From NCBI GenBank assembly GCA_009380005.1, contig WHSQ01000028.1, forward strand, positions 1-39,611: a DNA stretch of 39,611 nt, given 5' to 3'. Source of the stretch: Actinomycetota bacterium. GTDB lineage: Bacteria > Actinomycetota > CADDZG01 > WHSQ01. Position numbers and translations under genes: made by a program. This document shows, one piece after another, positions 14,704-16,915 of this stretch. The notes beneath the pieces were generated by a model. It was given only the letters and a program-made list of their open reading frames with translations. It searched no databases and was not told the DNA's origin. Numbering within the stretch: the stretch's first letter is position 1; each line of letters opens with the position of its first letter.

Positions 14704-15552
14704 ATGAGCTTTGGCCGCTATAGAGGTCGGCATCTGAGGGCGCGGTCCAAGAAGCGTGGGCCCGTGGTCGTGGGCACCGCAGCCGCCGTGTTGGTCGGCA
14801 CCGGCGGCACCAGCGCAAGCGCGGGCTCGTACCGCGTGCGTGCCGGCGACACGTTGTCCTCGATCGCGTCTCGCTACAAGACCACCGTCACCCGGCTGGT
14901 GCGGATGAACAACATCAGCGATCCCAACTTGATCGTCGTGGGCCGGCGTTTGCGGGTTCCCGGAGGTGGACCGGGGACCCGCACTCACTCGGTGCGTGCC
15001 GGCGAGACGCTGTCGTCGATCGCCGGGCGCTACAAGACCTCCGTCGGGCGCATAGCCAGGATGAACAGGATCTCGAACGTCAACTTCATCTCGATCGGTC
15101 AGAAACTCAAGGTTCCCGGAGGATCCGTGGCGAACCGGGGCGCGACCGGCTCGCCCTCGGGCTCCGTTTCCAACTCGCTCACGCATCACGCTCGGTCGCA
15201 CGGATTGGACGTCTCGCTGGTCAAGGCGCTGGCGCGGTTGGAGAGCGGCTGGAATCAGAAGGCGGTTTCGAGCGCCGGCGCTCGAGGGGTCATGCAGGTC
15301 ATGCCCGGTACCGCCCGCTACATCAACCGGGTTCTCGGCGGCGGTGGACACCGACCCCTGCGCCTGCGAGACATGGACGACAACGTCCACCTCGGAGTGA
15401 TGTACCTAAGGCACATGCTGGCGATCATGCCGACGCAGAACAAGGCGCTCGCCGCGTATTACTCGGGCCCCGGCAACGTCAAGCGCAGACTCGACAGACG
15501 TCAACGCTGGTACGCGCGCACGGTCCAGGGACTTAGGTCTCGATTCCGTTAG
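14704..15552 (+). CDS. secreted LysM-domain lytic transglycosylase
   Basis: Cell-wall enzyme: a basic N-terminus and a hydrophobic stretch (about 20-40, ending SASAG) form a signal peptide. Two LysM peptidoglycan-binding repeats follow (about 42-86 and 95-138, each [13 protein letters not shown]-like and ending LKVPGG). The end is an SLT-type domain (about 160-282) with catalytic Glu 180 in [12 protein letters not shown] and the following [13 protein letters not shown] and [10 protein letters not shown] motifs. It should cleave the glycan strand to 1,6-anhydro-muropeptides. ATG at 14704 has GGAGG eight bases upstream; the TTG just before it and an out-of-frame ATG at 14697 are poorer. 282 residues. 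Its last 20 bases overlap the convergent membrane-protein gene. Confidence 0.9.
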
Positions 15553-16030
15553 TTCTCGGTCGCGGGGTCGCCGTCAGAAGACCCACGGATCCGAGTAACG
15601 AGATCACGCCTGCCGCGGCGACCATCCACAACCCGAAGGCCGGGTCGGCGTCCCCGATGATGTCCATCCGCCGCGAGATGCCCGAGGCGGTGTCCTCGAT
15701 GGCGCGCAGGTCCGCGATCGCGATGGCACCGATCAGGATCGAAGCCAGGATCGAGAACCAGACGAAGCCACGACGGCGGGTTGAGACGGAGAGCGTTGTC
15801 GTCACGGCGATCGCGACCGCAGCTGCAACTACGTACCAGCCATCGCGGGCTTCGAGCCCCGTGAACGGTTGACTCACGTTTCGGACTCCCGGGACCGCTT
15901 CCGGAGCCGGCGTGATCTTCACCCAGGGCAGCAACGCGCCGATGATAGCGGCAGCCGCGGCGGCGAGACAGAAGGACGCCGCCACACCGCGAGCGCGATC
16001 GAAGTAGTCGCCGCGTGCAGATATCGCCAT
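15533..16030 (-). CDS. four-helix membrane protein of unknown function
   Basis: 165 residues with four predicted membrane helices: about 16-36 (Ala-rich, ending LLPWV), 63-82, 88-107 and 130-152. A charged cytoplasmic-type stretch [17 protein letters not shown] lies between the third and fourth. The spacing, an extracellular-type loop and the LLPWV ending of the first helix resemble small actinobacterial membrane proteins of unknown role. I chose ATG at 16030 because a TAGGCT box ends seven bases upstream; the frame stays open further, to 16087, inside the divergent mca gene. No function is proposed. Confidence 0.65.
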
Positions 16031-16036
16031 CACGGT

Positions 16037-16043
16037 TAGCCTA
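16037..16043. promoter_or_regulatory. overlapping divergent -10 boxes (mca and membrane protein)
   Basis: The seven bases TAGCCTA give TAGCCT on the plus strand, six bases before the mca GTG at 16049. On the minus strand they give TAGGCT, seven bases before the ATG at 16030. Both boxes fit TANNNT, so one near-palindrome can start two leaderless transcripts in opposite directions. Confidence 0.55.
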
Positions 16044-16048
16044 TCGGC

Positions 16049-16915
16049 GTGACCGAACGACGTTGTGTGCTGGCCATACACGCTCATCCCGACGATGAAT
16101 CATCCAAGGGTGCCGGAACGATGGCGCGCTACGCGGATGAGGGCGTGCGCGTCGTTCTGGCATGCGCGACCGACGGAGCCGAAGGCGAGATCCTCAATCC
16201 CCACATGGACAAGCCGGGGATAACGGAACGGATGGTCGAACTTCGCAAGGCCGAGCTCGAGACGGCGTGCGACCTGCTGGGTGTAGCGAAGATCTACCAT
16301 CTCGGCTACCGGGACTCGGGGATGCCCGAGAGCGACGCCAACAAGCACCCGGATGCTTTCTGGAACGCCGATCCCGAGGAAGCCGTGGGCAAACTCGTGG
16401 AGATCATCAGGCGGGAGAGACCGCAGGTGGTCCTGTCCTACGACGAATCGCGGGGCTACGAGCACCCGGATCACGTCCGCGTTCACCAGTGGGGCCGCCA
16501 GGCGTTCGAAGCGGCCGGCGACCCGTCCCTGTACACCGACCGCGGGGAGCCTTGGGTCCCCTCGAAGCTCTATTACTTCGCCACGTTCACGAAGCGACGG
16601 ATGCAGATCCTGCATGACGCTGCCTCCGCGGAGGGGATCGAGAGTCCCTACGCCGGTTGGCTCGAGAACTGGGACGCGATGGGTTTCGAGGATCCCGAGG
16701 TCACTACCCAGGTCGACGTCGGCGGCTTCATCGAGATCCGGTCGAAGGCCCTGCTGGCCCACGCGACGCAGATCGATCCCGAAAGCTTCTGGTTCGCGAT
16801 CCCCGATGAGATCGTGCGGAAGTTCTACCCTTGGGAGGACTACACGTTGGTCTCGTTGGTCTCGTCGGTCGTCGATACCACGACGCCCGAATCCGATCTC
16901 TTCGCCGGTCTGTAG
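16049..16915 (+). CDS. mca: mycothiol S-conjugate amidase (PIG-L/LmbE family)
   Basis: Zinc amidase that splits mycothiol S-conjugates so the mercapturic acid can be exported. The zinc site is AHPDDE (His 13, Asp 16) plus the second His motif YEHPDHVRVH. The segment ATDGAEGEILNP and the 288-residue length fit Mca better than the related deacetylase MshB, and YESRGYEHPDH-like sequence is typical of Mca. GTG at 16049 has no ribosome-binding site but a -10 box six bases upstream. The 3' end overlaps the convergent FtsH-like gene by 76 bases. It indicates a mycothiol-producing host. Confidence 0.88.
   Translation: MTERRCVLAIHAHPDDESSKGAGTMARYADEGVRVVLACATDGAEGEILNPHMDKPGITERMVELRKAELETACDLLGVAKIYHLGYRDSGMPESDANKHPDAFWNADPEEAVGKLVEIIRRERPQVVLSYDESRGYEHPDHVRVHQWGRQAFEAAGDPSLYTDRGEPWVPSKLYYFATFTKRRMQILHDAASAEGIESPYAGWLENWDAMGFEDPEVTTQVDVGGFIEIRSKALLAHATQIDPESFWFAIPDEIVRKFYPWEDYTLVSLVSSVVDTTTPESDLFAGL

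Follow-up and report, generated by a model that had tools for sequence, protein, structure and literature searches.

Seven bases, TAGCCTA, lying between mca (which encodes mycothiol conjugate amidase) and a divergently oriented gene for a small predicted membrane protein very probably act as a bidirectional −10 element of the published symmetric kind, from which both genes would be transcribed as leaderless messages. The interest of the site lies in its economy, its conservation throughout the family of the host genome and its recurrence at two other loci; the family itself is little studied.

Geometry of the junction

The site belongs to a window of 39,611 nt (the whole stretch of DNA analysed), which comes from the genome called G000 here. 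Two start codons face away from each other across a spacer of 18 bases (16031–16048): the ATG of the membrane-protein gene, seen as CAT on the forward strand, at 16028–16030, and the forward-strand GTG of mca at 16049–16051 (Table 1). Within the spacer, TAGCCTA forms an interrupted, imperfect palindrome (TAG-C-CTA) that reads as TAGCCT on the forward strand and as TAGGCT on the reverse strand. The −7 T of each hexamer is paired with the −11 A of the other, which is the sequence feature of a symmetric −10 element. On the mca side and on the membrane-gene side alike, a TANNNT stands about 12 bp upstream of the start with no room for a ribosome-binding site, as in leaderless genes. The earlier note had placed the heptamer, and both hexamers relative to their start codons, exactly. 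The start-to-start distance, counted from the start codons as six plus the two hexamer-to-start gaps, is 19 bp in G000 and 18–22 bp in its relatives.

Table 1 Features of the mca/membrane-gene junction (window coordinates)
Feature	Position	Strand	Remarks
Putative shared symmetric −10 heptamer, TAGCCTA / TAGGCTA	16037..16043	.	TAGCCT in 13/13 and TAGCCTA in 12/13 family junctions
Putative −10 hexamer toward mca, TAGCCT	16037..16042	+	6 nt from GTG, the gap at which the family leaderless profile peaks
Putative −10 hexamer toward membrane gene, TAGGCT	16038..16043	-	Ends 7 nt before ATG
mca, mycothiol conjugate amidase	16049..16915	+	GTG start, also the predicted transcription start; TIGR03446
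Small predicted membrane protein gene, 165 aa	15533..16030	-	ATG start; predicted transcription start 16030 or 16031

The mca product scores 336.2 bits against the TIGR03446 equivalog model, above its cutoff of 277.15, and because an in-frame TAG stop occupies 16037–16039, the GTG at 16049 is the first start codon of mca in G000. The 165-aa protein, labelled a membrane protein from hydrophobic stretches judged by eye, matched no Pfam or NCBIfam family in profile searches, and the Pfam matches of its orthologues were scattered and all below threshold. In 12 further genomes of the family, an orthologue is likewise arranged head to head with mca. At their 3′ ends, mca overlaps a convergent FtsH-like gene (AAA + Peptidase_M41) by 76 nt (16840–16915), and the membrane gene overlaps a convergent LysM-transglycosylase gene by 20 nt (15533–15552).

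Conservation of the heptamer and of its seventh base

We searched 100 genomes (G000 and relatives), of which 68 had mca or a related gene and 14 had the membrane gene. The family of G000, represented by 16 genomes in a class of 24, provided 13 genomes (G000 counted) in which the two genes are head to head with a readable junction; the junction set excludes one genome with no match to the membrane gene (G001), one with an mca fragment at a contig end (G009) and one with no close mca (G010). When the junctions were anchored on the hexamer, TAGCCT was present in all 13 and was followed by A in 12, the exception being T in G004. The conservation check suggested in the earlier note thus found TAGCCTA verbatim, and readable both ways, in nearly every junction, in keeping with the single shared symmetric −10 proposed there. 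Column information is 1.7–2.4 bits inside the heptamer and mostly 0.1–0.4 bits outside it, with weaker conservation at −2 (G in 11/13), −1 (T or G), +7 (C or T in 12/13) and some mca coding columns. Across the 13 junctions, no consistent −35 element was found on either side of the heptamer. The four-fold sites of mca are saturated, with a median identity of 0.38 compared with 0.36 expected from composition (66 pairs, 12 of the 13 genomes). Given that only the G011/G015 pair exceeds 0.6 in four-fold identity, the heptamer has been retained beyond what mere recent ancestry would explain.

The start codons have kept their positions along with the heptamer. In all but one of the 13 genomes, an in-frame start lies 6–10 nt from the hexamer on each side, in agreement with the leaderless spacing that the earlier note had ascribed to both. 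Among the 12 genomes with the full heptamer, five have an mca-side gap of 6, another five a gap of 7, and one each a gap of 8 and of 10 (G006, with a gap of 7, has an alternative ATG at gap 4); on the membrane side, three have a gap of 6, five a gap of 7, and two each a gap of 8 and of 9. An in-frame stop, the TAG of TAGCCTA, precedes mca in five genomes and makes upstream mca starts impossible there. Similarly, the membrane-gene frame is closed in or just after the heptamer in six of the 13 genomes (by TAG in G002, G006, G007, G013 and G014 and by TAA in G015), so that the membrane gene cannot start further upstream in those genomes. A membrane-gene start inside mca, which the earlier note had named as the finding that would overturn its proposal, is therefore excluded in these six but could still apply in G000, in which the frame is open back to −65 with an ATG at −50; the caveat is answered by the relatives and not by the G000 sequence. 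In G004, in which the symmetry is broken (TAGCCTT), the membrane-gene start lies 18 nt from the hexamer and is preceded by AAGGGAG, which resembles a ribosome-binding site; judging by these bases, it is as if the gene had moved to a leadered message.

Hexamers at leaderless spacing are common throughout the family. We applied a codon-model gene finder, which picked starts without promoter information, to 1,744,866 bases of four family genomes (G000, G003, G005 and G006). TANNNT occurred 111 times at a gap of 6, 36 times at 7, 38 times at 8 and 22 times at 9, and about 4 times per position at gaps 10–24; at gaps 6–9, it was present at 206 of 1,684 starts, compared with 45 for the control ATNNNA. 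The same stretches also showed a further, broader excess of TANNNT at 28–36 nt upstream of starts, where leadered genes would be expected to have it. TAGGCT, the hexamer that faces the membrane gene, is the commonest of those at leaderless positions (16/207). These hexamers favour G as the third base (46%), G or C as the fourth (75%) and C as the fifth (46%), and the base preferences give TAGSCT, so that the preferred hexamer is one A short of self-complementarity. Yet that A follows only 17 of the 207 hexamers. Among 79 outgroup mca loci, mostly from other actinobacterial groups, 42 have TANNNT at the leaderless position, of which four have A as the next base, in each case with no opposing start close by. 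As a one-way control, a response-regulator gene keeps TATCAT at the leaderless position in 10 of 11 orthologues, with A as the next base in none of the ten (scored by eye). Measured against the family and outgroup frequencies, the A at 12 of the 13 mca junctions points to selective retention of the seventh base, which favours a promoter that is read both ways.

The strongest alternative is that TAGCCT serves mca alone, with the membrane gene expressed as a leadered message from a separate promoter or translated from a start inside mca, and with the seventh base kept for the sake of mca. TAGCCT is indeed found widely ahead of mca outside the family, at loci with no partner start close by, and three of the seven outgroup TAGCCT hexamers carry the A without an opposing start; together with the open upstream frame in G000, the displaced start in G004 and the lack of a consistent −35 element, this weakens the two-way reading. 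We nonetheless consider a one-way promoter unlikely, given the rarity of A after leaderless hexamers in general, the six genomes in which an upstream membrane-gene start is impossible, the membrane-side in-frame starts at leaderless spacing in 12 of 13 genomes and the retention of the heptamer at two other divergent pairs (see below). A regulatory protein might instead be the reason for conservation, TAGCCTA being the half-site or core of an operator that overlaps one or both promoters. The invariant middle bases GCC and the weak flanking preferences at −2, −1 and +7 would suit an operator, but the symmetric element is just 7 bp long and, in 12 genomes, its distance from each start is exactly that of a −10. 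Moreover, the one-way TATCAT of the response-regulator gene is also invariant in mid-hexamer, so middle-base invariance is not special to two-way promoters and calls for no operator, and we regard this explanation as very improbable.

Recurrence at other divergent gene pairs

We scanned 2,144,866 bases of four family genomes for divergent pairs in which both starts lie 5–10 nt from a TANNNTA. Six of 245 pairs qualified (three of them being mca loci from different genomes and one an implausible overlap), as did 1 of 61 further pairs, giving 7 of 306. Seven symmetric control motifs gave 0–2 matches each, together three in the 245 pairs and two in the 61. In the stretches used for the leaderless profile, the control ATNNNAT matched twice, once at G006 C20:296337; at the other match, the inner TATCAT was kept among orthologues and the control heptamer mostly was not. 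A candidate at G005 C18:172899 was set aside because its predicted genes overlap by 158 nt. Chance, in the form of a common hexamer that happens to stand beside an A between two close starts, is hardly contradicted by a single genome, with seven TANNNTA pairs compared with 0–2 per control motif and three of the seven being the mca locus, but on the present sequences it is ruled out by verbatim conservation in 12 of 13 genomes with saturated four-fold sites and, provided that junction orthology is right, it retains a negligible probability.

Two of the other pairs have the same layout and keep their heptamer among relatives (counts for these pairs leave out lower-scoring matches taken as paralogues, as well as a birA fragment in G007). 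At the biotin carboxylase/biotin ligase pair (named from Pfam), TATCCTA precedes birA in 10 of 13 orthologues; in 8 of 13, in-frame starts lie at 6–10 nt on both sides. The two genes, which are functionally linked, are divergent with TATCCTA between close starts in most family genomes (for example, at G003 C4:308412), apparently sharing a promoter. At the pair formed by polyprenyl synthase and a small lipoprotein, TACCCTA is present in five of the six genomes that have the divergent pair, and G000 has CACCCTA. The heptamer is found in none of the five polyprenyl-synthase orthologues that lack the lipoprotein neighbour and, similarly, G001, which has mca without the membrane gene, carries TAGTTTG. 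This absence where the partner is missing, and the shared layout of the two pairs, are further points in favour of two-way use. At the lipoprotein locus of G003, TACCCTA is kept although the polyprenyl synthase is elsewhere, and an opposite-strand frame, open for 159 codons, starts 9 nt away.

A fourth candidate pair, which we take from its sequence to be hydrogenase maturation protease/TPR protein, was not conserved, with the heptamer in none of three relatives, and this weakens the case. Pooled over loci with the discovery genomes left out, 23 of the 26 relatives with a partner gene keep the heptamer, or 23 of 29 when the failed fourth pair is counted; as relatives are not independent, the p-value of a Fisher test of 23/26 against 17/207 overstates the difference.

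Proposed mechanism and relation to known systems

We propose that the housekeeping sigma factor would recognise either TAGCCT on the forward strand or TAGGCT on the reverse strand, the −11 A of one reading being base-paired with the −7 T of the other. These two bases are the ones that RNA polymerase flips out and holds, and they are reciprocally paired at a start separation of 18 bp, as described in a passage of PMC10268837; according to a passage of PMC12825309, 18 bp is the commonest separation and opposing polymerases cannot bind together. A polymerase loaded one way would start at the G of the mca GTG, and one loaded the opposite way at the first base of the membrane-gene ATG or at the base just upstream of it. 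Each message would then have its own start codon at its 5′ end and be read by leaderless translation. From the published mechanism, two polymerases would sterically exclude each other, with an effect on expression that is probably small unless one direction is activated. The earlier note went further in stating that the two genes would compete, which is unsupported in that form: at the five E. coli bidirectional promoters tested in PMC12825309, basal activity is described as too low for competition, which was seen only upon activation.

More tentatively, and with slightly less than even confidence, we suggest that this family makes repeated, selected use of bidirectional promoters with two leaderless products. 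In such a promoter, a single TANCCTA would set the transcription start and the translation start of both genes, link their expression and hold the start codons about 18–22 bp from each other while the genes remain neighbours. If so, biotin carboxylase would be coupled, through its promoter, to the ligase by which it is activated. Seven bases would suffice to fix where two genes begin to be transcribed and translated, without leaders, which approaches the minimum size for a divergent promoter. The retained seventh base would, in turn, be a sequence signature by which such promoters could be found in genomes without RNA data, making it directly testable whether symmetric promoters are selected or merely tolerated.

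The site resembles the symmetric promoters of E. coli (PMC12825309) and Salmonella (PMC10268837), as the relevant passages present them, in having one near-symmetric −10 that reads on both strands and the −7 T/−11 A pairing; the start separation predicted from the codons, 19 bp here and 18–22 bp in relatives, is near their 18 bp or so. It differs from them in that TAGCCT and TAGGCT are not near TATAAT, in that the predicted transcription starts fall at the start codons and in that a single heptamer has been retained in ten or more genera; the word 'leaderless' has no occurrence in either paper. In Actinobacteria, leaderless genes whose start codon has a TANNNT some 12 bp before it are well described (PMC3160421), and for M. 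tuberculosis 505 leaderless genes, and TANNNT without a −35 motif, are reported (PMC3898074). The mca/membrane-gene site shares the leaderless spacing and the lack of a clear −35, but the relevant passages of those works treat genes singly, whereas one element here would make two leaderless transcripts. The earlier note had singled out this double leaderlessness, which is unusual and yet has a precedent in the divergent M. tuberculosis pair prpD (Rv1130)/Rv1129c, in which both genes are leaderless (PMC3898074). That pair was mapped and ours is predicted from sequence; the passage on prpD/Rv1129c describes no shared −10, and the likeness drawn here is one of description. Among the papers listed by literature searches, with the original 2021 Nature Microbiology report outside their scope, none was seen to describe two leaderless transcripts arising from one −10. 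Such a double use would be a natural consequence of combining two published features, the symmetric −10 and the leaderless TANNNT.
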